Below are positions 2-49,932 of a stretch of DNA of 52,233 nucleotides, in pieces. The translations under genes were made by a program, and so were the position numbers. The notes beneath the pieces are model-generated. The model had not been told where the DNA came from. It saw nothing but the letters and a program-made list of their open reading frames with translations, and searched no databases. Positions within the stretch are counted from its first letter, which is position 1; each line of letters begins with the position of its first letter. This DNA comes from an uncultured Planctomycetota bacterium (GTDB taxonomy: Bacteria > Planctomycetota > Planctomycetia > Pirellulales > Thermoguttaceae): the NCBI GenBank assembly GCA_902796885.1, contig CADBQY010000061.1:1-52233 (forward strand). Reading direction: 5' to 3'.

Positions 2-142
2 GGAACGAACTACGACGCCGGTGTGTACGAGTTCGGCGCGGTGCCGCCGTCTCCGGCGGAACTGCCCTACAGCGATTCGGCCGACGCCGCGTTCGCTGAG
101 CTCGGCGAAGATGACCTGACGGTCAATTTCGAAGAGTTCTGA
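2..142 (+). CDS. C-terminal end of a probable secreted beta-helix (choice-of-anchor) protein, partial
   Basis: Only the last 46 codons are in the window, read in the frame starting at base 2 and ending in TGA at 140-142. The residues GTNYDAGVYEFG resemble the DxGAYE-type ending of secreted right-handed beta-helix proteins with a choice-of-anchor domain. They are followed by a Pro/Ala/Asp/Glu-rich acidic tail ending VNFEEF. The rest of the gene lies upstream, so length, start and signal peptide cannot be judged. A strong hairpin about 50 bp after the stop would end this transcript. The open frame and its position before a terminator support a real gene; the family is a guess from one short motif. 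Confidence 0.5.
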   Translation, partial: GTNYDAGVYEFGAVPPSPAELPYSDSADAAFAELGEDDLTVNFEEF

Positions 143-192
143 GGTTTCCGAGTTTGGCGTGCCGGTTGGGGTGAATAGCCCCGGCCGGGGAG

Positions 193-235
193 AAACCGCC
201 CGAACGGCCGTAAGGCCGTTCGGGCGGTTTCGTTT
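193..235 (+). terminator. Strong hairpin terminator after the partial gene
   Basis: A perfect 17-bp stem (193-209 with 214-230) closes on the tetraloop GTAA and ends in GGTTTCGTTT. The left arm begins with AAA, so the hairpin could also work on the minus strand. It lies 50 bp after the stop at 142 and well past the end of the convergent NifA-like gene. Confidence 0.85.
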
Positions 236-358
236 GGGGGGAGGGGGGGGCGGGAAGGCGCGGGTTCGGGAAGGCGAAATCCGGTAATAATTTTGACCAT
301 CCCGTTCTTCTTGCGTCGGATGAGTTTTTCCAGATACCGGTCGCGCCAATCCTTAGAG

Positions 359-388
359 AATATTTCTGCAAGTTCTTGCAGAAATATT
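359..388. repeat. 30-bp near-perfect palindrome
   Basis: Two perfectly complementary 14-base arms, AATATTTCTGCAAG and its reverse complement, are separated by TT. The arms are AT-rich in a GC-rich neighbourhood. There is no T-run beside it, so it could be an operator, a recombination site or a hairpin. No function is assigned. Confidence 0.7.
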
Positions 389-401
389 TCGTAGAAACGG
401 G

Positions 402-461
402 GCGGGCGCTGTCGGCAGGGTAAGCCGACCGGGGGAATGTATCGCCGGCCGGGGCTCCCGG
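402..461. repeat. 60-bp intergenic repeat, copy 1
   Basis: Aligns without gaps to 571-630 with 8 mismatches in 60 bases. This copy contains a small dyad (GTCGGC at 411-416, GCCGAC at 424-429) that copy 2 has lost. Confidence 0.7.
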
Positions 462-570
462 ACGGGAGAGCGTTTCGCTGCTCCCGCGCGTGGGGTGTGT
501 AGACACGCTCGGGGCGGTGCGGGAGGGGGAGTAGACGCGCTCGGGGCGGAAACCAAGCCCGCCCGGCGAG

Positions 571-630
571 GCGGGCGCTGTCGGCTGGCTAAGCTCATCG
601 GGGGAATATATCGCCCGCCGCGGCTCCCGG
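571..630. repeat. 60-bp intergenic repeat, copy 2
   Basis: Second copy of the repeat at 402-461, 169 bp downstream in the same orientation and about 87% identical. It ends about 10 bp short of the stop codon of the NifA-like gene on the other strand. Confidence 0.7.
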
Positions 631-10856: not shown

Positions 10857-10865
10857 GACGTCTCC

Positions 10866-10897
10866 CCCCGCCCGACGAGGGCGGGGATTACATTTTT
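10866..10897 (+). terminator. Hairpin terminator after glnN
   Basis: The 8-bp GC stem CCCCGCCC (10866-10873) with GGGCGGGG (10879-10886) closes on GACGA and is followed by ATTACATTTTT. It lies 10 bp after the glnN stop. Its T-rich tail is also the left part of the dyad before carA. Confidence 0.7.
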
Positions 10898-10902
10898 GTA
10901 AA
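10887..10902. promoter_or_regulatory. Dyad upstream of carA resembling the glnN/gltB sites
   Basis: ATTACATTTTTGTAAA fits TTTACA-N4-TGTAAA except at its first base. It lies 19 bp before the carA start, too close for normal sigma-54 activation, and overlaps the T-tail of the glnN terminator. It may be an operator, or may look like one by chance. No -24/-12 or clear -35/-10 box is visible before carA. Confidence 0.4.
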
Positions 10903-10921
10903 AGAGGTTTTTGAAGGTTCG

Positions 10922-12010
10922 ATGGATTCGGAACATTTTCTCGCCCTGGCCGACGGGACCGTCTTTTTCGGCCGGTCGTGCGGCGCGCCGCGCGACGCCG
11001 AAGGGGAGGCCGTCTTTAATACGGGGCATACCGGCTATCAGGAGATCGTCAGCGACCCCTCCTACGCGGGGCAGACAGTCGTTTTGAGCGCGCCGGAGAT
11101 CGGGAATTACGGATGCCGCGCGGCGGATATGCAGTCGCGCGGCCTTTTTTTGAGCGGACTGGTGACGCGGCGGATGAACCCGCCGTCGAACGCGCGGAGC
11201 GAAGAGGCGCTGACCGACCTTTTGCGGCGGTTCGAGATTCCCGCGCTGACCGGCGTCGATACGCGCGGACTGGTCCTCCATCTGCGGCGCGCCGGAAGCC
11301 AGCGCTCGTATCTGCACTGCTCGGATTGGCCGATCAGCCCCGGCGAGGGGGTGCGCCGCGCGCGGGCGTTCGCCGGACTGGACGGGCTCGATATGACCGC
11401 GCGGGTGACCGACCCGGACGGCTCGTCGTGGGAAGCGCCGGAGGACGAACCGAGCGGCGCGCCCCTTTTGGCGGCGCTTGATTTCGGAATGAAACGGTCG
11501 ATTTTGCGCGAGCTCCGCCGCGCGGGGTTTCGCGTGCGGGTCGTGACGGCGCAGACGGGCGCCGACGAGGTGCTGGCGCTGAAGCCGGACGGCGTTTTTC
11601 TTTCGAACGGACCGGGGGACCCGGCGGGGGTACCGCACGCGGTCGAGACGGTTCGGGAGCTTCTGGGGCGGGTTCCGACGGTGGGGATCTGTCTGGGACA
11701 TCAGATATTGGCGCTCGCCTGCGGCGCGAAGACCGGACGGCTCAAGTTCGGCCATCACGGGTGCAACCACCCGGTGAAAGACCTGACCGACGACAGCGTG
11801 GCGATCACCAGTCAGAACCACAACTTCGCCGTGCTGAAAGATTCTCTGCCGGCCGAGGCGGAGCTGACGCACGTCAACCTGAACGACGGGACGGTCGAGG
11901 GGATCCGCCTCCCCCGCGCGCGGGCGCTTTCGGTGCAGTTTCATCCCGAGGCGGCGCCCGGCCCGGACGACGCGAAAAGCCTCTTCGGGCGGTTCCGCGC
12001 GATGTTTTAA
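10922..12010 (+). CDS. carA: Carbamoyl-phosphate synthase small (glutaminase) chain
   Basis: A 362-residue subunit that hydrolyses glutamine and channels ammonia to CarB for carbamoyl phosphate, the precursor of arginine and pyrimidines. The N-terminal CarA domain starts [16 protein letters not shown] and includes [17 protein letters not shown]. The C-terminal class I amidotransferase has the nucleophile Cys in [15 protein letters not shown] and the His-Glu pair in [12 protein letters not shown]. It stands between glnN and carB, so glutamine synthesis and use are adjacent. The ATG is preceded only by a purine-poor stretch (TTTTTGAAGGTTCG), where GAAGG may be the ribosome site. Confidence 0.95.
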
Positions 12011-12061
12011 AACGCGCTCCCCGCGCGACGACAACGATTGAAAAGGAAAGTGAAGACGGTT

Positions 12062-15000
12062 ATGCCCGCTCGCAGCGATATGAAAAAAATCATGCTCATC
12101 GGCGCCGGTCCGATTCTGATCGGGCAGGGGTGCGAGTTCGACTATTCGGGGGTGCAGGCGTGTAAAGCGCTCCGCGCCGAAGGATACGAGATCGTGCTGG
12201 TCAACAGCAACCCCGCCACGATCATGACCGATCCGGAGTTCGCCGACCGGACGTATATCGAGCCGATGACGTTCGAGACCCTCGCCGAGATCGTCCGGCG
12301 CGAGTGTCCCGACGCGCTGCTGGCGACGCTCGGCGGGCAGACCGCGCTGAACCTGGCGCTCCGGCTTTACGACGAGGGGGTTCTGCGGCGGTATCACGTC
12401 GAGATGATCGGCGTCGGACCCGAGGCGATCCGCCGCGCCGAAGACCGCGAGCTGTTTAAGGAAACGATGGCCGGGCTCGGGATCGAGACGCCGAAGTCGT
12501 TCTCGGTTCACTCGTTGGACGAGGGGCGCCGGGCGGCCGAGAAGATCGGCTCGTGGCCGCTGATCCTCCGCCCCGGGTTCACGCTGGGGGGGAGCGGCGG
12601 CGGGATCGCCCGCGGCGCCGAAGAGTTCGAGACAATCCTCCAAAGGGGGCTCGACGCGAGTCTGAACCGCGAGGTGCTGATCGAGGAGTCGCTCCTGGGA
12701 TGGAAAGAGTTCGAGCTGGAGGTGATCCGCGACCGGCGGAACCGCTCGGCGATCGTCTGCTCGATCGAAAACGTCGATCCGATGGGGATCCATACCGGCG
12801 ACTCGGTGACGGTGGCTCCCGCCCAGACCCTCAGCGACGCCGAATATCAGGCGATGCGGACCGACAGCCTGCGCGTGATGGACGCGATCGGCGTCGAGAC
12901 GGGCGGCTCGAACGTGCAGTGGGCGGTCGAGCCCGAAAGCGGGCGGCGCGTGATCATCGAAATGAATCCGCGCGTCTCGCGCAGCAGCGCGCTGGCGAGC
13001 AAGGCGACCGGATTTCCGATCGCCAAAATCGCCGCGCTTCTGGCGGTCGGCTACACGCTCGACGAACTGCGGAACGACATCACTCGAACGACCCCCGCCT
13101 GTTTCGAGCCGGCGCTCGACTACGTCGTGACGAAGGTTCCCCGCTTCACGTTCGAGAAGTTCCCGGGAACCGACTCGACCCTGGGAACGCAGATGAAGTC
13201 GGTCGGCGAGGCGATGGCGATCGGCCGGACGTTCAAGGAATCGTTCCAGAAGGCGATCCGGAGTCTCGACACCGGGCACGACGGCTTCGGCGCCGACGCG
13301 AAATGCGACGCGCTCCGCGAAAAGAGCGACGCGGAAGTCGACGCCGAAATCCGCCGTCCCAGTCCCGAAAGGTATTACTACATTTACGAGGGGCTGCGCC
13401 GCGGCCGGACGGTCGACGAGATCCGCGCCCTTTCGGGAATCGACCGGTATTTTCTGCGGAAGATGGCCGAGCTGGTCGAGACGCAGCGGACGCTGACGCC
13501 GACCGCCGAGTCGCTCGCCGCGGCGAAAGCGGACGGGTTTTCGGACCGACAGCTGGCGCGTCTTTTGGAAACGGACGAGGCGCGCGTCTTCGAGCTGCGC
13601 GGCGAGTTGGGCATCCGCCCGGTCTTCGGGACGGTCGATACCTGCGCCGGAGAGTTCGAGGCGGTTACGCCGTATTACTATTCGACGTTCGACGGCGTCT
13701 GCGACGAGCCGGTCCGCCCGACCCCTCCGGACAAGAAATGCCGAATCATGATCCTGGGCGGGGGACCGAACCGGATCGGACAGGGGATCGAGTTCGACTA
13801 CTGCTGCGTACACGCCGCGTTCGCCCTGCGCGAGGCGGGATGCGAGGTGATCATGGTCAACTGCAACCCCGAGACCGTCTCGACCGACTACGACACGAGC
13901 GACAAACTCTACTTCGAGCCGCTTACCTTCGAAAACGTGATGGCGATCTACCGGCGGGAGAAGCCGGACGGCGTGATCCTCCAGTTCGGGGGACAGACGC
14001 CGCTGAATCTGGCCGACGCGCTTTTCGAGGCCGGGGTGCCGATTCTGGGGACCACGCCGCGCGATATCGACGCGGCGGAAGACCGCGATCTGTTCCGCGG
14101 TCTGATGCGCCGCCTGGGGATCGCCCAGCCGCGGAGCGAAATCGCCCACACGATCGACGAGGCGCTGGCCGCGGTCGAACGGATCGGTTATCCGGTGCTG
14201 GTCCGGCCGAGTTTCGTCCTCGGCGGCCGGGCGATGGTGATCGTCTACAAAGAGAAATACCTGCGAAAGTTCTTCGAAGAGGCCGAACGGGTTTCGTCGG
14301 GGCCGATTCTGATCGACCGTTTTCTGGAACACGCCGTGGAAGTCGACGTCGATTCGGTCTCGGACGGCGATCGGACGGTGATCGGCGCGATCATGGAACA
14401 CGTCGAGCTGGCGGGAATCCATTCGGGGGACTCGGCCTGCTCGATCCCGCCGCGCTCCCTTTCGCCCGAGACGATCGAGACGATCCGCCGATACACACAC
14501 CGGATCGCCGAGGCGCTGCACGTCTGCGGGCTGATGAACATCCAGTTCGCGGTTCAGGACGGGACGGTCTATATGATCGAGGTGAACCCCCGCGCCTCGC
14601 GGACCGTGCCGTTCGTGAGCAAGTCGACCGGCGTGCCGCTGGCCAAGAAGGCGGCGCTCTGTATGCTGGGACGCACGCTCGACGAGGCGGGGCTCACCGG
14701 CGATGTGACGCTCCCCTACGTGACGTTCAAGGAGGCGGTCTTTCCGTTCGCGAAGTTTCCCGGAACCGACATCGCCCTTTCGCCCGAGATGAAATCGACC
14801 GGCGAGGTGATGAGCATCGAGTTTGCCGATTCGCAGGCGTATCTGAAAAGTCAGATCGCCGCCGGGAGCGCCCTGCCGAAAAAAGGGGGCGTCTTCGTCT
14901 CGCTGCGCGACGCCGATAAAAAAGACGCGATCCCGCTGGCACGCGAACTGGAAGAGCTGGGCTTTACAATCTACGCCACGCTCGGGACGGCGACCGAGCT

Positions 15001-15298
15001 GTATAATCACGGTCTGAAATGCCGCGCGGCGTACAAGATCAGCAGCGGCCGTCCGAATATCCTCGACTTCATCGACGAAGGAAAGATCAGCTGGATCGTC
15101 AACACGCCGAATCCGGGCGCCGCGTCGAAGGTCGACGAGATCCGAATGCGTACCGCCGCGGTGATGAAGGGGATACCCGTGACAACGACCCTTTCGGCGC
15201 TCGAAATCGCCGTGCGCGGTCTGAAGAACGCCGAGGAGACCGGGACGGTCCGCACGCTGCAGGAATATCACCGCCTGGTCCGGCAGTCGCGGGGCTAG
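12062..15298 (+). CDS. carB: Carbamoyl-phosphate synthase large chain
   Basis: A 1078-residue ATP-grasp enzyme with the usual internal duplication. The first half starts [20 protein letters not shown], and the second half has the matching [20 protein letters not shown]. The C-terminal allosteric MGS-like domain includes [20 protein letters not shown] and [14 protein letters not shown]. The ATG at 12062 (MPARSDMKK) is chosen because it matches the family N-terminus; an in-frame TTG at 12038 would add 8 residues and is less likely. It follows carA by about 50 bp, almost certainly in one transcript. Confidence 0.95.
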
Positions 15299-15348
15299 GA
15301 AACGGGCGCGGGGCGGGAAACGCCGCCTTCGCGCTTTCACCGCGCTCT

Positions 15349-15429
15349 TTTACAAATTTGATCTTTTCGCAGACGCGGCGAAACAAAATTGTTCTTTTCG
15401 CACGGCGCGGGCGTGTACATTTTTGTGAT
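15349..15429. promoter_or_regulatory. Three imperfect ACA-N4-TGT type dyads upstream of amtB
   Basis: The sites are TTTACAAATTTGATCT (15349-15364, one good arm only), GAAACAAAATTGTTCT (15380-15395) and TGTACATTTTTGTGAT (15414-15429). The last two keep the exact ACA-N4-TGT core seen before glnN and carA. Centres are 31 and 34 bp apart. They lie about 100-180 bp before the predicted amtB transcription start, as activator sites for sigma-54 promoters usually do. Confidence 0.5.
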
Positions 15430-15502
15430 TTCCGCGGCGCTTTTTTCATTCGGCTCTCCGTTGGACGGCTCGTTCGGGAATTTTCGGCGCGCGAGGGCAC
15501 GA

Positions 15503-15519
15503 TTGGCACGCCCTTTGCA
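15503..15519 (+). promoter_or_regulatory. Consensus sigma-54 promoter for amtB
   Basis: TTGGCACGCCCTTTGCA is a full match to the -24/-12 consensus, with GG-N10-GC spacing. Transcription would start near 15530, about 75 nt before amtB. Confidence 0.92.
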
Positions 15520-15606
15520 AAATGAAGGACGGGCGGCGCCTCGCGCGCCGCCCGCGGAAATCAATTCACCCGAAAGTTTCACCCGTTCAGAGAAAGGAGC
15601 ATCGCG

Positions 15607-17094
15607 ATGAAAATCTGGAAGGCGATCTTTGTGCTTGTATTACTCTTTTTCGGATTTCTGACCGTCGCGTTCGTCAAGGAAGCGCGGCAGGGGGGAAGAG
15701 AGAATCTCGGCGAGCCGGAAGAGACTCCGATCGAAAAGGCGGTCGGCGACGTCCTGAGCCTTCTGGGACTCGGCGCGCCCCTTTACGCCGGCGAAGCGCA
15801 AAGCATCCCTTCCGAGCCGGAGGCGGCGGCCGAGACGGGTTCCCCGGAAGGGGACGCTCCGGCCGACGCGGCGGGTCTGAACACCCTCTGGGTTCTGATC
15901 GCCACCTTCCTGGTCTTTTTCATGCAGCTCGGCTTCATGCTGGTCGAGGCGGGGTTCAGCCGTTCGAAGAACGCCGTCAACATCATGATGAAAAACGTGA
16001 TCGATTTCGCGGTCGGTTCGCTGGCGTTTTTCGCCGTCGGTTTCGGACTGATGTGGGGACTCGATCGGTGCGCCTTCTGCGGCACGCGCTTCTTTCTGCC
16101 GACCTCGGCCGACGTCTTCGCCGTGAACCCGCAGCTCGGCTGGACCTTTTTCCTCTTTCAGACGGTCTTCTGCGCCACGTCGGCGACGATCGTCTCGGGC
16201 GCAATGGCCGAACGGACGAAGTTCACCAGTTATCTGGTCTACTCCCTGGTGATCTCGGCGCTGGTCTATCCGATCTTCGGCGCGTGGACCTGGGGGGGCG
16301 GCTGGCTCGGGAAACTCGGTTTTCATGATTTCGCCGGTTCGACCGTGGTGCACTCGCTCGGTGGGTGGCTGGCGCTGACCGGCGCGGCGACGCTCGGTCC
16401 GCGGATCGGCAAGTATTCCCCCGACGGGCGGGTCAACGCGATTCCGGGTCACCATATTTTAATGGGCGCGCTCGGCGTCCTCTTCCTCTGGTTCGGGTGG
16501 TTCGGATTCAACCCGGGGAGCACCCTGGCGGTCACGCCGTCGATCGGGTATATCGCCGTAACGACGAACCTGGCCGCGGCCGCCGGCGCGGTTTCGGCGA
16601 TGGTGCTGGCCTCGATCATCTACGGCACTTCCGACGCGACGATGACGCTCAACGGCATCCTGGCCGGTCTGGTGGCGATCACCGCCGGCTGCGACGTCGT
16701 CTCCCCCCTGGGGGCGATTTTGATCGGCGCGGCGGCGGGCTGCCTGGTGATCGGCTCGCTTTTGTTCGTCGACCGCGTCCTGAAAATCGACGATCCGGTC
16801 GGCGCGATCAGCGTTCACGCCGTCTGCGGGACGTTCGGCACCCTCTGCGTCGGGCTCTTCGCCGCCGACGGGACGGGTCTCTTTTACGGCGGGGGGACGA
16901 AGTTCCTGCGGGTTCAGCTCCTGGGCGCGGGGGTCGCGCTGGTCTGGGCGCTCGGGTGCGGGTTTGTCCTGTTCCTGGCGATCAAACGGACGATCGGTCT
17001 GCGCGTCAGCCGCCACGAGGAACTCCGCGGGCTCGATATCGAAGAACACGGAATGCAGGCGTATCCGAACTTCGACACCTGGACCACGGTCTGA
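15607..17094 (+). CDS. amtB: Ammonium transporter
   Basis: A 495-residue Amt/Mep/Rh channel. A signal-like hydrophobic N-terminus ([19 protein letters not shown]) is followed by about 60 acidic, Ala/Glu/Pro-rich residues. The Amt core begins at [20 protein letters not shown] and has eleven expected membrane segments. The twin pore histidines are in [13 protein letters not shown] and [15 protein letters not shown]. Family landmarks NPGSTLA and [15 protein letters not shown] are present. AAAGGAG precedes the ATG. The sigma-54 promoter upstream and the P-II gene 73 bp downstream fit the usual amtB-glnK pairing, in which P-II blocks the channel when ammonium is plentiful. The C-terminus ([21 protein letters not shown]) is the standard cytoplasmic P-II-contacting tail. 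Confidence 0.96.
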
Positions 17095-17167
17095 GGCGGC
17101 GCGGCGGAAAGCGGCGTTACGGTTTATCCATCCACGCAAACGACAGAAATTGAGTCGGAGAAAGAAA

Positions 17168-17509
17168 ATGAAATTGATCATTGCCTATATTCAGCCGGAA
17201 TCGCTCAACGACGTGAAGCAGGCGCTTCTGAAAGAGAACATCGCGAAGCTTTCGGTGGTCAACGCGCTGGGGTGCGGCCATCAGCTGGGGTACACCGAGC
17301 AGTACCGCGGGGTGGTTTCGGAAGTGAACCTTCTGAAAAAGGTCCGGCTTGAAATCGCCGTCAACGACGACTACCTCGAAAAGACGCTCGACGTCCTGAT
17401 CGAAACGGCGCGGACCGGACATATCGGGGACGGAAAGATTTTCGTCGTCGATCTGCTCGACTGCATTCGGATTCGAACCGGCGAGCGCGGAAAGGAGGCG
17501 ATCGGCTGA
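17168..17509 (+). CDS. glnK: P-II nitrogen signalling protein (GlnK type)
   Basis: A 113-residue P-II protein, normal length. It senses ATP/ADP and 2-oxoglutarate and would gate AmtB. Family motifs are [14 protein letters not shown] and IRIRTGERG. The T-loop runs [20 protein letters not shown], with Gln39 and Lys58 present, but position 51, the Tyr uridylylated by GlnD in proteobacteria, is Ser. Control by uridylylation at that site is therefore excluded; direct effector binding or another modification must suffice. It sits 73 bp behind amtB and shares its promoter. The start at 17168 is chosen because it gives the exact family N-terminus; the frame is open further upstream inside amtB. Confidence 0.95.
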
Positions 17510-17863
17510 CCGGCCCGCGCGCCGGCCGCACATGAAAGCGTGCGGGAAAGGAACCGGGCGCACACACCGCACCGGGGCCTTTCGGGGTCGGTTTTGGGAG
17601 GAGCCGGCCCGCCGCACGTCTTATCGCGCCGGCAAAACTTTTCTTACCCGTATAACCGGAACGGCTTTTTTCGAAAAAACGAAGAGATTCGCACTTTTTC
17701 TTGATTTTTTAGCCGGAGGGTTCTACCTTTTACTGAACGCCGATTTTTCGGGAGAGTCGTTTCTTTCGTCGCGGGCGTTCTTTTCCCTTTAACGGGAAAA
17801 TTGATTTCATTCCCAACAGTCCCTCCAGACGTTATTGGCGGAACGGTTCCGCGCGAGGCCCGT
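17510..17863. other. Gap after glnK, no gene recognised
   Basis: No coding frame with family features is visible. A 7-bp inverted repeat (TTTTCCC 17781-17787, GGGAAAA 17794-17800) lies about 65 bp before the next gene. AT-rich tracts from 17630 to 17820 could contain a promoter, but no clear -35/-10 pair stands out. Confidence 0.5.
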
Positions 17864-18427
17864 ATGTCGAAATATTCCGGACTCTTCCTTTCGTTCCTCC
17901 TGATCTTCATCTGTCTGTGGATCAATATCTGCCATTACCCCCAGGTCTGGAAGATGGTCAACGGCACGGACTATCCCTCATCGGGGGAAGGCGCCGATTC
18001 CGCCGCGGACGAGAACATCTTGGAGACGAACGCCGCGCCGGCCGAGAGCGAGCCGCTCTATGCCCGCGCCGATCGGAGCGACGAGAACTGGCCGAAGCCG
18101 GTGATCATCACCGCCAGTTTCCCGCCCGCCGCGAGCGAAGAGAACGACGCCGTTTGTGATTCCGCCGACGACGCCGACGGCGATCCGGACGACGAGGTCT
18201 TCCGCCGCGTTTCGTTTACCGCCGACCAGTGCTCGGCCGAAGCGGTGAGCGAAGCCGCCCGCGCCGAAGAGCCGGCCGCCGCCCCGTCGGACGTGATCTC
18301 GGACATTTCGGAAGGGGGAATTCGGGTCCATTCGAGTTATCTGGCGGCGGAATTCTCGGAAGAGTCGAGTCCGCTCGATCACGAAACGCCGAGTTATCAA
18401 ATCGATCCGAGCAAAACGGCGGAATAG
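17864..18427 (+). CDS. Membrane-anchored acidic protein of unknown function
   Basis: A 187-residue protein not recognised as any family. One hydrophobic segment (YSGLFLSFLLIFICLWINIC, residues about 4-23) would act as an uncleaved anchor or signal. The remainder is rich in Asp, Glu, Ala and Ser and probably disordered. The ATG at 17864 is preferred over an upstream start because the hydrophobic segment then begins right after it and GCGAGG precedes it. A strong terminator follows about 70 bp after the stop, so this is probably a single-gene unit. Weak sequence complexity makes function assignment impossible. Confidence 0.6.
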   Translation: MSKYSGLFLSFLLIFICLWINICHYPQVWKMVNGTDYPSSGEGADSAADENILETNAAPAESEPLYARADRSDENWPKPVIITASFPPAASEENDAVCDSADDADGDPDDEVFRRVSFTADQCSAEAVSEAARAEEPAAAPSDVISDISEGGIRVHSSYLAAEFSEESSPLDHETPSYQIDPSKTAE

Positions 18428-18605: not shown

Positions 18606-21434
18606 ATGAAACTCCGCGTTCTCCTTGTTCTTTTGTTTCTTTCCTGGCTGACCGTCCGTCCGGCGACCGCCGACACGACCCTTGAGACCGACACCTTCCG
18701 ATGGGTGATTGCCGACGACGGGGCGAACGTCTCCCTTTTCGACAAGACGGGAAACGCCGAATACCTCGACGCCGAAACGCGGTCGTACTGCGCGCAAGCG
18801 AAAAAGGGAGACGAGCTCTTTCCCGCCGAGTCGGCGCGCTTCGACGGCCGGACGCTGACGCTCTCGTTTCAAAACGGGGCGGTCGTCGCCGAACTTCGGG
18901 TCACGCCGCGGTCCGGCGCGCTGATTCTCGAGGTCGCGAGCGTGCGCGGCGAGCCGGACGAGCTGATCTTTGCGTCGGTTCCCCTGACGCTCGACGCGAA
19001 GCCGTTCGAGCCGTTCGCCGCCTGTGCCCTGGCGCTCACGCCTTTCACCCACGTTCAGCAACTTCCCGCGCTCCAGACCGAGTTCCGGGCGCGCGCGACG
19101 GCGCGGTTTGGGCTGGTCGGCGCCAAGGCGGCGCTGATCGGCGTGCCGCAGTCGGAGATCATTCCGGCGATCCGGCGCGTGATGACAGGCGACGCGGCCG
19201 GGTTCCCCATCTCGGACAAGGGGGGCGCGTGGGCGCTCGACAGTCCGGACGGACACGGATCGTATCTGATGAATTTCGGGACGCTGACCGAAGAGACGGC
19301 CGATTCGTGGATCGAGTCGTGCCGCCGGCTCGGTTTCAATCAGATCGACAATCACGGCGGCGAATTCTTCCGGTTCGGTTCGCTCGACAACGTTCAGCCG
19401 GGAGGGTGGGATTCGTTTAAGAAGGTGGCCGACCGTTGCCACGCGGCGGGGATTCAGGTGATTCTGCACACCTACTCCTGCTTTATCAGTCAAAACGACC
19501 GCTACGTGACGCCCGTGCCGCACCCCGATCTGGACACCTGGCGCGAATGGACGCTCGCCGAGCCGGTTTCCCCCGACGCGACCGAAATCACGGTCGCCGA
19601 GCCGCTGGACGGGGATCTTCTTCAGAAAGGATGGTCTGCGACGAGCAGCCGCACGCTCCGTCTGGGCGACGAGATCGTCGAATACGAGAACGTGACCCGC
19701 GAGGCGCCCTGGAAGTTTTTAGGGTGTAAACGGGGGTTCCACGGGACGGAGGCCGCGGCGCACGAAAAAGGGAGCGCCGCGTCGCTTCTGAAAACCTATT
19801 GGGGCGGACTCTACGTTCCGAAGCTCGAGTCCCCCCTCTGGTTCGAGATCGCGGCGAATCACGCCGACGTGACGAACAAATGCGGATTCGACGGACTCTA
19901 TTTCGACGCGATCGACGGGCTGAACCGGATGTGGGGGAACGAGGATTACTGGTATTACGCCGGGAAGTTCGTGCTGGAAGTCGCGCGGCGGCTCGACCGG
20001 CCGGTCGGCATGGAATTCTCGGCGATGATCCATCCGTGGTGGCATTACCGTTCGCGGTATCAGGCGTGGGATTCTCCCAACCGGGGGTTCAAGCGGTTTC
20101 TCGATCTTCATATCGGCCTGATCAAGGGGGCGCCCTCGTATCAGCGCGGCTCGGAAATCGATCAGTTCGCCGCGTCCCGGGACGGGCGGTTCTACCTGCC
20201 GCTTCAGCTCGGCTGGTGGAAATTCGTCCGCTGGGGAAACCCGAAAGACGAGCCGACCTACGGCGACGACGTCGACTACGTCGGGTGCAAGCTGGTCGGC
20301 AACCGTGCCGGTTTCTCGTTTAATCATCCGGTCGACGTGAGCCGGATCGACGCCGATCCGTTTCTGGCCGACTCGATCGGCCGGCTCCGCGAGTACGCGC
20401 GGGTGCGCGACTCGGATCTCGACGAGGCGACCCGTGAAAAACTCCGCGCGCCGGGTAAGGAATACCGCCTCTTTTACGACGAAGAGGGAGCGCCCCGGTT
20501 CCGCGAAACGTTTTACAAGCGGCATCGGGTGACCCGCGCCGACGACGCGAGCGCGGCGTGGACGGTCGTAAACGAGTTCGGCGCTCAGCCCCTTTCGGCG
20601 CGGATCGCCGCGCTCTACGCGCCGGACGACGGCGGGGACGCGCCGCCGATTCGGTTCGATCCCGCCGCGGCGGGGCGGTGCGAAGGGGCCGACGGCGTGA
20701 CCGGAAACGTGGAGCCGAACGCCGGAACCGTTCCGGCGACGGGTCAGTCGGCGTTCGCCCTGACGGCTTCGAACGCGGGTCGGGTTGCCGACGAGGCCGC
20801 GTGGCTGAAAACCGCGCCTTCCCGCCTTCCCGAAGGAATACCGGCCGATTCGCTCGCGGCGACCGGCTTTTGGCTTTGCGGGGACGGAAAGGGAGAGGTT
20901 CTCAACGTGCGGATCGGCACGTGCTGTCATCTGGTGACGATCGACTTTACCGGATGGCGGTATATCGAACTTCTCGAACCCGATTCGACGCGGGTTCTCG
21001 ACTACGTCTGGCCCGGACCGGTCGTGTCGTACTATTCGCTCTTTCGCGAGTCGGGGGACCGGTCGGTCTGCGAACTCTGGTACAACAACATCCCTGCGGG
21101 GGAGACGGTCCGCTGCCTTTTCGGGCCGATCGCGGCGTTTCGCCACCGCGAGTACGAGCTGAAAAACCCGTCGATCGCCGTCGGCGGAAAGAGGGTCCTG
21201 TTTCCGACGACACTCGAGTCGGGCGCATATCTCGAACTGCGCGGCGGGAAATGCGTGAAATACGACAAGACGGGCGCGCCGGTCGGCGAGGTGGTTCCGG
21301 AAGGGGAGATTCCCGCGCTCGAACCGGGGCCGAACGACGTTCGCTTTTCCGCCGAGACCGGCGGCGGGAACCCCTCGCGCGCCGAGGTGACGTTGATCGG
21401 GGAAGGGGAGGTTCTGCCGTCGGGCGCGCCTTGA
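18606..21434 (+). CDS. Large secreted protein, putative glycosidase-like TIM barrel (paralogue 1)
   Basis: A 942-residue exported protein. The signal peptide is MKLRVLLVLLFLSWLTVRP followed by ATA. An N-terminal beta-rich region (TLETDTFRWVIADDG, VSLFDKTG) precedes a central part that looks like a (beta/alpha)8 barrel: CRRLGFNQIDNHGG, AAGIQVILHTYSC, CGFDGLYFDAIDG, RPVGMEFSAMIHPWWHYRSR. The Asp residues of LYFDAIDG and the Glu of GMEF are candidate catalytic acids. The C-terminal part (GFWLCGDGKGEVLNVRIG, DFTGWRYIELLE) resembles a carbohydrate-binding beta-sandwich. I do not recognise a named family, so the glycosidase role is inferred from fold pattern and export. The ATG at 18606 is chosen for the signal peptide. 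The next gene is a close paralogue. Confidence 0.75.
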   Translation: MKLRVLLVLLFLSWLTVRPATADTTLETDTFRWVIADDGANVSLFDKTGNAEYLDAETRSYCAQAKKGDELFPAESARFDGRTLTLSFQNGAVVAELRVTPRSGALILEVASVRGEPDELIFASVPLTLDAKPFEPFAACALALTPFTHVQQLPALQTEFRARATARFGLVGAKAALIGVPQSEIIPAIRRVMTGDAAGFPISDKGGAWALDSPDGHGSYLMNFGTLTEETADSWIESCRRLGFNQIDNHGGEFFRFGSLDNVQPGGWDSFKKVADRCHAAGIQVILHTYSCFISQNDRYVTPVPHPDLDTWREWTLAEPVSPDATEITVAEPLDGDLLQKGWSATSSRTLRLGDEIVEYENVTREAPWKFLGCKRGFHGTEAAAHEKGSAASLLKTYWGGLYVPKLESPLWFEIAANHADVTNKCGFDGLYFDAIDGLNRMWGNEDYWYYAGKFVLEVARRLDRPVGMEFSAMIHPWWHYRSRYQAWDSPNRGFKRFLDLHIGLIKGAPSYQRGSEIDQFAASRDGRFYLPLQLGWWKFVRWGNPKDEPTYGDDVDYVGCKLVGNRAGFSFNHPVDVSRIDADPFLADSIGRLREYARVRDSDLDEATREKLRAPGKEYRLFYDEEGAPRFRETFYKRHRVTRADDASAAWTVVNEFGAQPLSARIAALYAPDDGGDAPPIRFDPAAAGRCEGADGVTGNVEPNAGTVPATGQSAFALTASNAGRVADEAAWLKTAPSRLPEGIPADSLAATGFWLCGDGKGEVLNVRIGTCCHLVTIDFTGWRYIELLEPDSTRVLDYVWPGPVVSYYSLFRESGDRSVCELWYNNIPAGETVRCLFGPIAAFRHREYELKNPSIAVGGKRVLFPTTLESGAYLELRGGKCVKYDKTGAPVGEVVPEGEIPALEPGPNDVRFSAETGGGNPSRAEVTLIGEGEVLPSGAP

Positions 21435-21459
21435 AAATCGGACGCGCCCGTTGTAAGAT
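21431..21459 (+). promoter_or_regulatory. Vegetative promoter before the second secreted paralogue
   Basis: TTGAAA-N17-TAAGAT, with good boxes and ideal spacing, overlapping the stop codon of the first paralogue. The leader to the ATG at 21527 is about 60 nt and contains a GC hairpin with a T-run. Confidence 0.55.
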
Positions 21460-21473
21460 GAAAGGGTGTTTCG

Positions 21474-21492
21474 CGCCGCGCGCGGCGTTTTT
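21474..21492 (+). terminator. Hairpin with T-run between the two paralogues
   Basis: CGCCG (21474-21478) and CGGCG (21483-21487) close over CGCG and are followed by TTTTT. It may end transcripts of paralogue 1. It also lies just downstream of a predicted start, so it could reduce transcription into paralogue 2. Confidence 0.5.
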
Positions 21493-21526
21493 CGAATGGA
21501 ACCGAACCGACAACCGAAACGAGCCG

Positions 21527-24370
21527 ATGAACCGTTTGACCCGAGCGATTTCCGTTTTTCTTCTGTCCGTGATTTCCGGCGCGCTGTGGGCCGCCGACGC
21601 GGTGCTCGAAACCGACACGTTCCGCTACGCGATTTCCGGCGAGGGGGTCAATCTTTCCCTTTTCGATAAGACCGGCGGCCGCGAATATCTGCGGAAAGAG
21701 CCGTCAACGCCCTGCGCGTACGTCAAGGCCGGCGGCGCCGAGTTTCCCGCCACGGGCGCGACGCTTGACGGCGGGACGCTCCGTCTGGAATTCGCCGGCG
21801 CGACGGCGCGGGCCGAACTGCGGGTGACCCCGCTCCCCGGCGCGATCGTTCTGGAAGTCGCCGCGGCCGACGGTGCGTTCGACGAGCTTGTTTTCGCCAA
21901 CGCGCCGCTCGAGCTGGAAGCGAAACCGTACGAAGATTTCGCCGCCTGCGCTTTGGCGCTCACGACGCGGACCCACGTGCATCAGCTCCCCGCCCTGCAC
22001 GACGCGTATTGGGCCGAGGCGACGGCGCGGTTCGGTCTGGTCGGCGCCAAGGCGGCGCTGGTCGGCGTGCCGCAGGCGGAGATTCTGCCGACGATCCGCC
22101 GCGTGATGACAAGCGAGGCGGTCGACCTTCCCCCCTCGGACAAAGGGGGCGCGTGGGCGCTGGAAAGCCGGGACGGGTACGGCTCGTATCTGATGAACTT
22201 CGGCACGCTGACCGAAGAGACGGCCGACGGCTGGATCGAGTCGTGCCGGCGGCTCGGATTCGACCAGATCGACAACCACGGCGGCGGGTTCTTCCGGTTC
22301 GGTTCGCTCGACAACGTTCAGCCGGGGGGCTGGGATTCGTTTAAAAAAGTGATCGACCGCTGCCACGCGGCGGGGATTCAGGTCATCCTGCACACCTATA
22401 CGTGTTACATTCAGAAGGACGACCGCTACGTGACACCCGTGCCGCATCCCGATCTGGACACCTGGCGCGACTGGACGCTCGCCGAGCCGATCGACGCCGA
22501 GTCGGACGAGATCGCCGTCAACGAGGCGATCCCGCCGGAGACGACGCTCAAAGGGTGGGACGCGACGAGCAGCCGCACGCTCCGCCTGGGGGACGAGATC
22601 GTCGAATACGAGAGCGTCACTTCGGAGGCGCCCTGGAAGTTCTTGGGGTGCAAACGCGGGTTTCACGGTACACGCGCCGCGGCGCACGAGGCGGGGAGCT
22701 CCGCGTCGCTTCTGAAGACGTACTGGGGCGGGTACTACATTCCGAAACCGGATTCGCCGCTTTGGTACGAAATCGCGAAGAATCACGCCGATCTGGTGAA
22801 CCGGTGCGGATTCGACGGGATCTACTTCGACGCGATCGAAGGGCTCCAGTATATGTGGGGGAAAGAGAACTACTGGTATTACGGCGGCAAATTCGTGACG
22901 GACGTCGCCAAAGACCTGGAACGTCCGGTCGGCATGGAGTTCGCCGGAATGATCCATTCCTGGTGGCACTACCGCTCGCGCTACCAGGCGTGGGACTCGG
23001 CCTCCCGCGGATTCAAACGCTTCCTCGACATTCACCTCGCCTCGATGAAGGCGGGCGAGGAGTATCAGCACGGCTGTTGGCTCGGGCATGACCCGGAAAT
23101 CGACAAGTTTGGCGGAATGAAGGCCGGAGGGCTCTATCTGCCGCTGCAGCTCGGCTGGTGGCGGCTGATCGGTTGGGGAAAACCGCAGAACGACCCGACT
23201 TATCGCGACGACGTCGACTATATCGGCTGCAAGCTGGTCGGGAACGACGCCGGCTTTTCGTTCAACCACCCGATCACCGTCGAAGAGATGGAAACCAACC
23301 CGTTCTTGGGCGAATGCGCGGCGCTTCTGCGCGATTACGCCCGGGCGCGGCGCGACGGACTCGACGAGTCGATCCTCGAAAAGCTCCGCCAGCCGGGGAA
23401 AGAGTTCAAGCTGTACCGCGACGCCGACGGCACCCCCTGGTTCCGCGAGACGTTCTACAAGAAACATAAAGTCGTCCACACAACCGACCCGAGCGCCGAG
23501 TGGACCGTGTCGAACGAATTCGGCGCCCAGCCGCTTTCGCTCCGCCTGGCGGCCTTCTACTCGCCCGCCTCTTACGGCAATCCGGAAAAGGGCGTCCGGT
23601 TCGATCCGGCCGCCGTCTCCGCGGAGTGCGAAGGAAACGACGGCGTGACCGGGCGGCTCGAACCGGACGCCGGTACCGTTCCGGCGACCGGCGAGACGGC
23701 GTTTGCCTTCCGCGCGTCGCACGACGGCGAGGTCCCGGACGACGCCGCCTGGGTCCGGACCGAGGCGTGGCGGATGCCGTCCGAGTCCGACCCTCAGAAG
23801 CTGCAGGCCACGGGGTTTTGGCTTTGCGGCGACGGGCAGGGTGAAGTCCTCAACGTTCAGATCGGCCTTTACAGCCAGTTGGTCAAAATCGACTTTACCG
23901 GCTGGCGGTATATCGAGCTTCTCGAAGCCGACTCGGCCGAGACAAGCCGCTGCGTCTGGCCGCCGATGGACTATTCGGTCTACACGCATTACCGCGAAAC
24001 CGGCGATCTGCGCTCCTGCCGCCTTTGGTTCAACAACATTCCCGCGGGAAAGACGGTCCGGTGCCTGATCGGGCCGATGGCGGCGCTCCCCTACGGGGAC
24101 TACGAACTGGTCAATCCCGTCGTGACGCTGAACGGCAAAACGGTGCGGTTCCCCGTCACGCTGGAGACCGGCTCCTACTTCGAACTGCGCGGCGGCAGGT
24201 GCGTGAAGTATAACAAAGACAACGTTCCGGTCGGCGAGTTCCTTCCCGAAGGCGCCGTTCCGACTCTTGAAAAAGGGGAGAACCGGATCGCCGTCGACGC
24301 CGAATCGCCGCAGGGGACGAGCAAACGAATGGAACTGACCGTCATCGGCGAGGGAGACCGCCTTCAATAA
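21527..24370 (+). CDS. Large secreted protein, putative glycosidase-like TIM barrel (paralogue 2)
   Basis: A 947-residue exported protein that aligns with the preceding gene along its whole length, well over half the residues being identical by eye. Shared blocks include LETDTFR, SYLMNFGTLTEETADGWIES, FFRFGSLDNVQPGGWDSFKK, DTWR-WTLAEP, KFLGCKRGFHGT and CGFDGIYFDAIEG. Paralogue 2 has GMEFAGMIHSWWHYRSR at the second candidate catalytic site and CWLGHDPEIDKF where paralogue 1 is shorter. The signal peptide is MNRLTRAISVFLLSVISGAL plus WAA. The open frame extends far upstream through paralogue 1, but the ATG at 21527 with its signal peptide is the natural start. Tandem duplication followed by divergence is the likely origin. 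Function is as uncertain as for paralogue 1. Confidence 0.75.
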   Translation: MNRLTRAISVFLLSVISGALWAADAVLETDTFRYAISGEGVNLSLFDKTGGREYLRKEPSTPCAYVKAGGAEFPATGATLDGGTLRLEFAGATARAELRVTPLPGAIVLEVAAADGAFDELVFANAPLELEAKPYEDFAACALALTTRTHVHQLPALHDAYWAEATARFGLVGAKAALVGVPQAEILPTIRRVMTSEAVDLPPSDKGGAWALESRDGYGSYLMNFGTLTEETADGWIESCRRLGFDQIDNHGGGFFRFGSLDNVQPGGWDSFKKVIDRCHAAGIQVILHTYTCYIQKDDRYVTPVPHPDLDTWRDWTLAEPIDAESDEIAVNEAIPPETTLKGWDATSSRTLRLGDEIVEYESVTSEAPWKFLGCKRGFHGTRAAAHEAGSSASLLKTYWGGYYIPKPDSPLWYEIAKNHADLVNRCGFDGIYFDAIEGLQYMWGKENYWYYGGKFVTDVAKDLERPVGMEFAGMIHSWWHYRSRYQAWDSASRGFKRFLDIHLASMKAGEEYQHGCWLGHDPEIDKFGGMKAGGLYLPLQLGWWRLIGWGKPQNDPTYRDDVDYIGCKLVGNDAGFSFNHPITVEEMETNPFLGECAALLRDYARARRDGLDESILEKLRQPGKEFKLYRDADGTPWFRETFYKKHKVVHTTDPSAEWTVSNEFGAQPLSLRLAAFYSPASYGNPEKGVRFDPAAVSAECEGNDGVTGRLEPDAGTVPATGETAFAFRASHDGEVPDDAAWVRTEAWRMPSESDPQKLQATGFWLCGDGQGEVLNVQIGLYSQLVKIDFTGWRYIELLEADSAETSRCVWPPMDYSVYTHYRETGDLRSCRLWFNNIPAGKTVRCLIGPMAALPYGDYELVNPVVTLNGKTVRFPVTLETGSYFELRGGRCVKYNKDNVPVGEFLPEGAVPTLEKGENRIAVDAESPQGTSKRMELTVIGEGDRLQ

Positions 24371-24418
24371 CGCGCGCTCGCTTTGAACATCGACACACAA
24401 AGAGAATGGAGAGATAAA

Positions 24419-25246
24419 ATGTTGAAACGCCTCTTTTTCGTTATTTTCACGATCCTCTCGGCGGCGGGCGCGCTGACCGCCGCCGACGCGGCGAAACCGT
24501 GCGCGGAGCCCGGCGAGAAGACGACGCTCCAAATCGCCGGCGTCGACTATACGTTCGTCTGGTGTCCCGCGGGGGAATTCACGATGGGAAGCCCCGCGTC
24601 GGAGGAGGGACGTTACGACGCCGAAGTTCCTCATAAGGTCACGCTGACGCGCGGCTTCTGGCTCTTGGAGTCGGAAGTGACGCAGAAGATGTGGGAGAGC
24701 GCGATGGGCACGAACGTCCGTCAGGAGTGCGAAAAGGCGGGGGGCCGCTGGGTCACCGCCGCCGGTCCCGATTTCCCGATGTATTACGTCGATTGGGACG
24801 GCGCCGAAGCGTTCTGCGCCAAATTGAGCGAGCTTTCCGGCCTTGAAATCACCCTGCCGTCCGAAGCCCAGTGGGAATACGCCTGCCTCGCGGGGAGCGA
24901 CGCGCCGTTTGGCGGATCGGGCGATCCGGGCGAGATGGCCTGGTACGCCGAAAACAGCGAGTTCAAGGCGCACCAGGTCAAGACGAAATCGCCGAACGCC
25001 TGGGGCCTTTACGACATGCACGGCAACGTGTACGAATGGTGTCTCGACCAATACGGCGAACTCGGATCCGCCGCCGCGACCGACCCGCTGGCGACCGACA
25101 AGAGCGTGACTCACGTTTACCGCGGCGGCTGCTGGGACAGCCCGGCGCGGAACTGCCGCAGCGCGTTCCGAATGAAATATCCTTTAACCCGGCGGCTCGA
25201 CTACGCGGGTCTGCGGATTCTGCTTGTGCCCGGCACTGAAGATTGA
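24419..25246 (+). CDS. Secreted SUMF1 (formylglycine-generating-enzyme-like) domain protein
   Basis: A 275-residue protein with a signal peptide (MLKRLFFVIFTILSAAGALT) and a single SUMF1/FGE-type domain. Typical blocks are FVWCPAGEFTMGSP, VTLTRGFWLLESEVTQKMW, LPSEAQWEYACLAG, WGLYDMHGNVYEWC, and VYRGGCWDSPARNCRSAFR. True formylglycine-generating enzymes have a C-x4-C pair at the end of the fold; here the cysteines of GGCW and RNCR are seven residues apart and the pattern differs, so sulfatase activation is not claimed. AATGGAGAG precedes the ATG. It follows paralogue 2 by 48 bp and may share its transcript. A related gene comes next. Confidence 0.85.
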   Translation: MLKRLFFVIFTILSAAGALTAADAAKPCAEPGEKTTLQIAGVDYTFVWCPAGEFTMGSPASEEGRYDAEVPHKVTLTRGFWLLESEVTQKMWESAMGTNVRQECEKAGGRWVTAAGPDFPMYYVDWDGAEAFCAKLSELSGLEITLPSEAQWEYACLAGSDAPFGGSGDPGEMAWYAENSEFKAHQVKTKSPNAWGLYDMHGNVYEWCLDQYGELGSAAATDPLATDKSVTHVYRGGCWDSPARNCRSAFRMKYPLTRRLDYAGLRILLVPGTED

Positions 25247-25313: not shown

Positions 25314-26801
25314 ATGAAATACAGAAGCAGCTCCAATATGTCCAGGCAATCGGTGTTCGTTCCGATTCTGACGGTGTTTCTGCTTCTTTTTCCCGCGTTT
25401 TCCTTTTCCGGAAAAGGGGAACAGACCGGGGAAGAAAACCAGGCGGGTGGGAAAGCGGCCGCTGCGGACGCCGGTCTTTCCGAACCATTCGGACCCGGCT
25501 CTTTTGCCGGAGAGAGGAGAACGCTCACAGTCAGAGGCGTTGATTACGCGTTCCGCTGGTGTCCTCCCGGCGATTTTCTGATGGGGAGAATGAATCATCC
25601 GGCAATGAAGATTCGCTCGAGCAATCCATTGCGTCGAGTTAGGCTGACACGCGGTTTTTGGATGCTGGAAACGGAAGTCACGCAAAAGATGTGGAAGAGC
25701 GTGATGGGAACGGACGTGATAGTCCAGCGTGAAAAGGCGGCGGAACAGGATTCTGAAGAAGAGGGGAAAGATTACTATGTTCTCGCCGGAGTCGGTCCCG
25801 ATTTTCCGGTCTATTATGTGAACTGGTGGGAAGCAACCTCGTTCTGCCGCAGACTGAGTTTACTCTCGGGTCAAATGGTTCAGCTTCCGACCGAGGCCCA
25901 ATGGGAATGCGCCTGCCGTGCCGGGACGCGGACCGATCTCTATTCCGGGGATTTCGAAAGAGCCGCTCCCTACAATATTCCGGCATTGGATCAGATCGCG
26001 TGGTATATCGGTAACGCCAGTATCGGTTACAGCGGGGGGGAAGTTAATGAGGGAAAGGATTTCGGTTCGGACGTCGGCCTCAAAAAGTGGGTGCAGCATG
26101 ACGGGAATCTTTTAGGAGCTCATGAGGTCGGCGGGAAAGAACCTAACTCCTGGGGACTTTACGACACAATCGGGAACGTTCGGGAATGGTGTTCAAACTG
26201 GTTCGATGTCTGTGAATATCTTAAGTATCCGTATGGAGTCTCCGTCAATTGGCAGGAGGGGTGGTCCGACGGCAAATACTACTATCACGCGACAGACGCG
26301 ATCCGGGTCGGTTTTACCGTTCGGAAACAGATTGTGGATGAAGAGGACTATTACATCACCGTTGATCCGGCGGGAATACCTTTAGATACCGGTTGGGGGA
26401 AGTCCCATCGGGGCGGGGGATGGGCTGCCATTACGATTGTTGATACGGCCGTGTGCCGAGACTCGGATAATCCGTGCCAGCGGTCTATGGATTTGGGATT
26501 CCGGGTGGCGCTGATACCCATAATCCCGGAAAATGAGAATTCCGCGTCTGTCGTTCCCCAGACATTTCCCGGCGCGGCCTCGTGCCGGGAAGGAGTTGAT
26601 TTTCCCTTCCTTCTGTTTGATTACGACGGAGTCTGTACCGAACTCACTCCTCCGCCCATGAAGAACGGCCGTGACATTTCCCCTGCGGCACGGACACTGA
26701 CAGCACTTGCCGCCCAGCTTCTTAACGAGCGCCGGGTTCACCAGCCCAGGTGGGCTTACAACCTGTTGAGGCTTTGCGGTATCGAATGGTTCGTATGGTG
26801 A
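25314..26801 (+). CDS. Second secreted SUMF1-domain protein with C-terminal extension
   Basis: A 495-residue relative of the preceding gene. A signal segment (SVFVPILTVFLLLFPAFSF) leads to a SUMF1 domain: YAFRWCPPGDFLMG, VRLTRGFWMLETEVTQKMW, QLPTEAQWECACRAG, NSWGLYDTIGNVREWC, SHRGGGWAAI. A long insertion carries Tyr-rich segments before the last block. About 95 residues follow the usual SUMF1 end (GFRVALIP) and match nothing I know. GGGW in place of the cysteine-bearing ending again rules out a canonical FGE active site. Codon use is visibly more AT-rich than in the neighbours, hinting at a different origin or relaxed selection. AAGGATCGAG precedes the ATG. Confidence 0.8.
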   Translation: MKYRSSSNMSRQSVFVPILTVFLLLFPAFSFSGKGEQTGEENQAGGKAAAADAGLSEPFGPGSFAGERRTLTVRGVDYAFRWCPPGDFLMGRMNHPAMKIRSSNPLRRVRLTRGFWMLETEVTQKMWKSVMGTDVIVQREKAAEQDSEEEGKDYYVLAGVGPDFPVYYVNWWEATSFCRRLSLLSGQMVQLPTEAQWECACRAGTRTDLYSGDFERAAPYNIPALDQIAWYIGNASIGYSGGEVNEGKDFGSDVGLKKWVQHDGNLLGAHEVGGKEPNSWGLYDTIGNVREWCSNWFDVCEYLKYPYGVSVNWQEGWSDGKYYYHATDAIRVGFTVRKQIVDEEDYYITVDPAGIPLDTGWGKSHRGGGWAAITIVDTAVCRDSDNPCQRSMDLGFRVALIPIIPENENSASVVPQTFPGAASCREGVDFPFLLFDYDGVCTELTPPPMKNGRDISPAARTLTALAAQLLNERRVHQPRWAYNLLRLCGIEWFVW

Positions 26802-49860: not shown

Positions 49861-49932
49861 GGTCGTATTCGCCTGCAATGTCTGGGGTTGATGTGTGGGA
49901 TGATGTCCATAAAGCGCCGCTCGCGGCGTCTT

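Follow-up and report, generated by a model that had tools for sequence, protein, structure and literature searches.

What do two adjacent genes for large secreted proteins do in an uncultured planctomycete, and do they belong to a known enzyme family? The pair lies in a 52,233-nucleotide stretch of DNA, which we call the window, from a Planctomycetota assembly of 3.14 Mb that is 81% complete. A first-pass annotation, made by a model from the sequence alone, had read the pair as tandem full-length paralogues with signal peptides that may represent an undescribed family of glycoside hydrolases or lyases. Coding status, homology, duplication, selection, predicted fold and conservation were all computed directly in this study.

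A tandem pair of secreted paralogues

The open reading frames lie where they had been placed: gene A (18606..21434, + strand) encodes a secreted putative α-glycosidase of 942 aa and gene B (21527..24370, + strand) one of 947 aa, and the two proteins are 63% identical in an end-to-end alignment over 944 residues. Both leaders (18606-18671 in A and 21527-21589 in B) are short, basic and hydrophobic and have an A-x-A end (TVRPATA followed by DT in A; SGALWA followed by AD in B). The observation is thus confirmed: A and B are full-length paralogues with Sec-type signal sequences. Codon usage in both genes correlates with that of the window's housekeeping genes (r 0.91-0.92, compared with 0.30-0.34 for the +1 frame) and, against orthologues from three related genomes (goat, yak and a rumen metagenome), dN/dS was 0.24-0.27 for gene A and 0.13-0.24 for gene B. 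This indicates that A and B are real genes under purifying selection. From here on, residues are numbered along mature B, the first base of which is position 21590.

No copies beyond A and B were found in the own genome. The family itself spreads through Planctomycetota and Kiritimatiellae: a match was detected in 25 of the 392 sampled genomes of Planctomycetota, the window's own phylum, and in 22 of 240 genomes from the phylum to which one Kiritimatiellae genome belongs. The highest number of matching places per genome (13) was seen in the Kiritimatiellae genome G448. Close relatives with a match all fall within the own taxonomic family: 26 genomes in it match (the own genome included), and none of the genomes sampled elsewhere in the order does. 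Nine family loci were found in named genomes, Kiritimatiellae included, and the nearest named relatives are Thermoguttaceae metagenome-assembled genomes (goat and yak duodenum) and uncultured-planctomycete ones of the RUG series. Distant relatives at L115, L119 and L120 (Kiritimatiellae) and at L025, L026 and L027 carry added N-terminal LamG or CBM_4_9 domains. One Kiritimatiellae copy, L117 (G448:C1:753815-756568), reportedly contains one in-frame TGA, which may be an assembly error or mark a decaying copy.

In the goat and yak relatives the array consists of three paralogues in the order C-A-B, and in the window and at L005 the order is A-B. Paralogue C (L003 2067-4916 and L004 7947-10778) is absent from the window, and its β6 block reads CSRSQAWDS in place of RSRYQAWDS. 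A tree separated, with full support, a clade made up of all the A copies from one that joined B with C, and thus the A/B split is older than the divergence of these species. We noted that the A copies are six residues shorter in the loop between β6 and β7 (GCWLGHDPEID in B and C) and have DAIDGLN at the β4 motif, compared with DAIEGLQ in B and C. A and B, old paralogues that differ at these two places, have presumably stayed side by side because they target different linkages in, or decorations on, one substrate.

The neighbourhood of the pair is devoted to nitrogen metabolism and transport, with no sugar-utilisation cluster. Just upstream, at 8700-17509 (+), lies a nitrogen-assimilation block with GSIII, carAB, an ammonium transporter (assigned by reading the ORF) and P-II, and at 17801-18427 (+) a small membrane-anchored ORF without a Pfam match, which also precedes the array in relatives (46-64% identity). 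Directly 3' of B are two SUMF1/FGE-like genes (24383-25246 and 25314-26801, both +). Such genes are kept after the array in the goat, RUG11210 (one only) and RUG695 relatives and, in the own genus, wherever the contig reaches downstream of the array, one to three of them are followed by pepT and lactate permease. Outside the genus, neither a conserved context nor a sugar cluster was seen around family members, and genomic context was therefore rejected as a clue to substrate. A link to sulfatases through the FGE-like neighbours also appeared weak: the FGE active-site motif is RGGSxLCxxxxC, the first SUMF1-like neighbour reads RGGCWDSPARNC at this site, so that one active-site Cys position is presumably missing, and the own genome has one sulfatase above cut-off versus 12 PF03781 (SUMF1-like) loci.

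Family status and predicted fold

As the first-pass annotation had anticipated in recognising no family, A and B matched nothing in Pfam up to E = 1, and no PDB sequence was related to either by sequence search. The sole NCBIfam match was TIGR01370 (E 0.02-0.06), at 13.7 and 12.3 bits against a cut-off of 181.25, and two of the 34 family members scanned reached E 0.0011 at best. Up to E = 1, Melibiase (PF02065) did not match A or B; among the 34 members it matched one, at E 0.037, its curated cut-off not being reached. GH101 (PF12905), too, was without a match in A and B up to E = 1 and is absent from the 10 families listed for members. Separately, the window holds a bona fide GH36 gene at 47803-49878 (- strand), with a Melibiase match at E 2.7e-21 and ENCASGG and RSD motifs, which offers a reference from within the same genome. 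Published descriptions of the A/B family were not found in the open-access literature. We conclude that A and B probably form an undescribed family, where undescribed means absent from Pfam, NCBIfam, PDB and the open-access papers searched and says nothing on CAZy/dbCAN families.

An AlphaFold2 model of mature B, built with 34 family sequences and with strands assigned by DSSP, was obtained with high confidence (mean pLDDT 92.5, pTM 0.89). It begins with an N-terminal β-sandwich (residues 1-160; 21590..22069, +), continues with a (β/α)8 barrel (about 190-600; 22157..23389, +) and ends with a second β-sandwich (605-660 and 840-926; 23402..24367, +) that is split by a CBM11-like jelly roll (about 664-838; 23579..24103, +). 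The predicted TIM barrel is thus present, with strands at 200-203, 226-230, 264-269, 410-413 and 448-451, bridges at 462/469, and strands at 520-524 and 555-558. The expected C-terminal sandwich of carbohydrate-binding type was also recovered: modelled alone, the C-terminal all-β part reached a pLDDT of 93.0, and residues 664-838 (67-241 of this separately folded part) superimposed on CtCBM11 with Z 11.9 (152 aligned, rmsd 3.4). PF03425 (CBM11) appeared under its cut-off in 6 of the 34 members. Overall, the first-pass reading could have failed at two points, by a confident match to a known family or by a fold lacking a barrel; no such match was obtained, the barrel is there, and its nearest folds are GH36, GH101 and GH31 α-glycosidases.

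In detail, Foldseek placed GH101 (E 2.4e-13) slightly ahead of the GH36 enzymes FpGalNase (E 1.1e-12) and AgaA (E 1.2e-10), followed by GH31 (E 2.4e-10), with GH129 at E 1.5e-7. VIA-align ranked GH36 first, with FpGalNase at Z 16.2 over 446 residues (model 4..613, a range that takes in the N-terminal sandwich together with the barrel), T. maritima GH36 at Z 15.7 and GH13 enzymes at about 14-15. Because the gap in Z between GH36 and GH13 is little over 1, the fold search alone gives a superfamily, not a family. A link to GH36 came from sequence profiles. The family profile found FpGalNase in the PDB (E 0.006), and a profile-profile comparison with planctomycetal GH36 gave a probability of 85-92% and a score of 53.8, compared with a maximum of 24.1 for 60 column-shuffled controls. 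Control profiles gave 0.5% for GH129 and 10-21% for two AP_endonuc_2 barrel sets; GH31 gave 12-23%, a weak comparison since one full-length sequence was used. We therefore reject generic TIM-barrel likeness as the source of the GH36 signal, the controls scoring much lower. Homology to GH129 was rejected as well (hhalign probability 0.4-4% against PF11308 members), and GH101 gave, by sequence, only weak, short matches elsewhere in the phylum. The GH36 profile alignment spans β1 to β4 only, with Asp414 falling on the GH36 nucleophile region, and the C-terminal half of the barrel has no similarity to the GH36 profile (0.1-0.3%).

The same comparisons bear on whether A and B could be polysaccharide lyases or other non-hydrolytic barrel enzymes of an isomerase- or aldolase-like kind. 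A few members weakly match the xylose-isomerase-like AP_endonuc_2 family (best E 0.0037), but that profile scores 32 (21%) versus 54 (92%) for GH36 and the leading fold matches are α-acting glycosidases, which makes a non-hydrolytic enzyme highly improbable. The hydrolase half of the first-pass proposal is probable on these folds, and nothing points to a lyase.

Unseen in the first-pass annotation was a family-wide, β-rich module of about 85 residues inserted between β3 and β4 of the barrel (about 291-376; 22460..22717, +). It carries the motif G-D-E-I ... C-x-R-G ... G-T ... H in all homologues, with Glu-336, Arg-356 and Gly-357 kept in 53 of 53 and Thr-361 and His-366 in 52 of 53. In its sequence the module resembles a phage-tail module: PF23666 (Rcc01698_C) matched it in 7 of the 34 members (best E 3e-5) and the tail protein phrog_1101 matched it in A (E 3e-4). 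A tblastn search of phage genomes returned weak hits, mostly to baseplate wedge proteins (E 0.1-0.9), and the module alone found nothing of note among PDB sequences. Domain B of GH13 enzymes occupies the matching place, between β3 and β4 on the catalytic face, and by this analogy the module probably takes part in recognising the substrate. Further, the strands flanking the CBM11-like domain, taken as one split domain, match sandwiches found in distal-tail and baseplate proteins, with Z 8.7-10.8 over about 105 residues. Residues 605-926 as a whole, a sandwich with an inserted carbohydrate-binding domain, have a plan like that of phage distal tail proteins, by common descent or convergence.

Candidate catalytic residues

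Conservation was counted over 53 distinct homologues, drawn from both Planctomycetota and Kiritimatiellae (over 54 for Glu450). The first-pass annotation had named the Asp of YFDAI and the Glu of GMEF as conserved acidic residues to mutate, and the YFDAI, GMEF and WWHYRSRYQAWDS blocks are indeed present and conserved in relatives. The first of these acids stood: Asp414 (precursor Asp435; 22829..22831, +; Asp434 of A at 19905-19907), at the end of β4, is kept in 53 of 53 homologues and is our proposed nucleophile. The second fared less well. Glu450 on β5 (22937..22939, +; Glu470 of A at 20013-20015) is the weaker candidate because it is kept in just 43 of 54, being replaced by Gln in 7 and by G/M/T/H in 4, and a better one is Asp469 of the QAWD block, a β6 bridge residue (22994..22996, +; Asp489 of A at 20070-20072) that is kept in 51 of 53 and that we propose as the acid/base.

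In the α-galactosidase superfamily the barrel is homologous in its N-terminal half, the nucleophile is an Asp on β4 and the proton donor lies on β6 (PMC1249566). The A/B family agrees in N-terminal-half homology (85-92%) and in the β4 Asp, and by position in the β6 Asp. As the C-terminal half of the barrel is without sequence similarity to GH36, the placing of Asp469 depends on strand position and conservation. With these qualifications, Asp414 and Asp469 may form the nucleophile and acid/base arrangement of this superfamily. The model has the layout expected of GH36, an N-terminal sandwich, a (β/α)8 barrel and an Asp at the end of β4; the K-x-D motif of GH36 at β4 (K461 and D463 in FpGalNase) is replaced by Tyr412-x-Asp414, with Tyr in 51 of 53 homologues. 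In FpGalNase, the mutants D463A, C513A and D532A have almost no activity (PMC11762096). The distance between D463 and D532 is 69 residues (PMC11762096), compared with 55 between Asp414 and Asp469, a difference that does not decide.

Glu450 would matter if the machinery were of the GH101/GH129 type, with Asp414 as nucleophile, Glu450 as acid/base and mucin O-glycans of the α-GalNAc type as substrate. The acid/base of GH101 enzymes is a Glu. Endo-α-N-acetylgalactosaminidases of GH101 head the Foldseek list, the D-to-E spacing, at 36, comes near that of SpGH101, at 32 (D764 and E796, taken from mutant entry titles; this spacing does not decide either), Glu450 is kept in all close relatives and the ruminant gut is the habitat of the genus. 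However, Glu450 is lost in the 11 homologues in which Gln or G/M/T/H takes its place and Asp469 is near-invariant, a sequence link to GH129 is absent, and no Pfam match to GH101 or GH129 was found in A, B or the rest of the genome. We regard this arrangement as possible, if unlikely, and the counts for Asp469 (51/53) and Glu450 (43/54) lead us to prefer the GH36-type pair Asp414/Asp469 over the GH101-type pair Asp414/Glu450.

A different reading would be that the barrel is no longer catalytic and that A and B are glycan-binding or structural proteins serving adhesion or surface coating. The two regions that resemble phage tail or adhesion modules, the absence of sugar-utilisation neighbours and the adjoining SUMF1-like genes would fit such a role. 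Against it, Asp414 is invariant and Asp469, Trp-459, Arg-464, Gly-522 and Trp-523 are near-invariant across phyla, as is typical of enzymes, and we consider a purely binding role quite improbable. Asp480, also in the barrel, is near-invariant among the 53 homologues as well.

Proposed activity and comparison with known enzymes

The reading that we favour, and hold to be probable, is that A and B represent an undescribed family, from PVC bacteria, of secreted multidomain glycoside hydrolases, acting most likely on α-linked sugars by a retaining mechanism of the α-galactosidase superfamily (GH27/GH31/GH36) type. The confidence of the model (pLDDT 92.5), the α-glycosidase folds, the GH36 profile link, the conservation of the two Asp residues and the CBM_4_9 and LamG domains of relatives argue for it; the lack of GH36 similarity in the C-terminal half of the barrel, the first place of GH101 in Foldseek and the lack of a sugar-cluster neighbourhood count against it. 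We infer the catalytic activity, its retaining course, the part played by each Asp and the class of substrate as follows. The proteins would be secreted, as their leader sequences suggest; the subsequent steps are drawn from fold and homology. The CBM11-like domain may capture a glycan, either a polymer or a glycoprotein, and the barrel would hold the scissile sugar at the C-terminal ends of its strands, beneath the inserted cap, with the β3-β4 module shaping the substrate pocket on the catalytic face. Asp414 would then attack the anomeric carbon to give a covalent glycosyl-enzyme, Asp469 would act as general acid/base by protonating the leaving group and activating water, and the product would leave with retained configuration (a retaining double displacement).

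Host α-galactosaminide or α-galactoside glycans are one substrate candidate, by analogy with the FpGalNase and GH101 fold neighbours and in keeping with the ruminant gut; plant α-galactosides are another. A bolder proposal, which we regard as speculative and improbable, is that A and B are founding members of a PVC-wide glycoside hydrolase family near the α-galactosidase/GH101 enzymes, that their cap and scaffold share phage tail/baseplate ancestry, and that two to three tandem paralogues divide the host's mucin-type α-galactosaminide/α-galactoside glycans in the ruminant gut among them. Neither Pfam nor NCBIfam has a model for the family, which occupies as many as 13 places in one genome and has no relative of solved structure. 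If it is one of glycosidases, a sizeable hidden part of the carbohydrate metabolism of these poorly cultured bacteria becomes testable. For bench work, the guess at the catalytic residues is corrected and two specific Asp residues can be mutated.

Overall, A and B probably represent a new branch, at family level, of a familiar kind of enzyme. The putative glycoside hydrolases of TIGR01370 (MJ1477/TM1410) resemble A and B in a short match across the β4 motif (residues 399-443), but at 12-14 bits this is far under the cut-off. GH129 (the α-N-acetylgalactosaminidase NagBb) is alike in general fold, whereas profile similarity is absent. CBM11 of C. thermocellum Lic26A-Cel5E shares the jelly-roll fold of residues 664-838 but only 7-9% identity, and in B this domain sits inside the second sandwich. 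GH101 (SpGH101, EngBF) has the best Foldseek E-values and, like B, an Asp on β4 and a Glu on β5, but identity is 7-9%, Pfam GH101 does not match and the β5 Glu is not kept family-wide. The GH36 enzyme FpGalNase, the A-type blood α-D-galactosamine galactosaminidase of Flavonifractor plautii (8x1b, 9awt, 9ayu), differs in having 12% identity to B and Lys-x-Asp rather than Tyr-x-Asp at β4, and the A/B family differs from GH36 in its β3-β4 module and in the CBM11-like domain within its C-terminal sandwich; the sandwich and barrel of FpGalNase nonetheless align with those of B, and the two share profile similarity from β1 to β4, an Asp at the end of β4 and, going by strand position, an Asp on β6.
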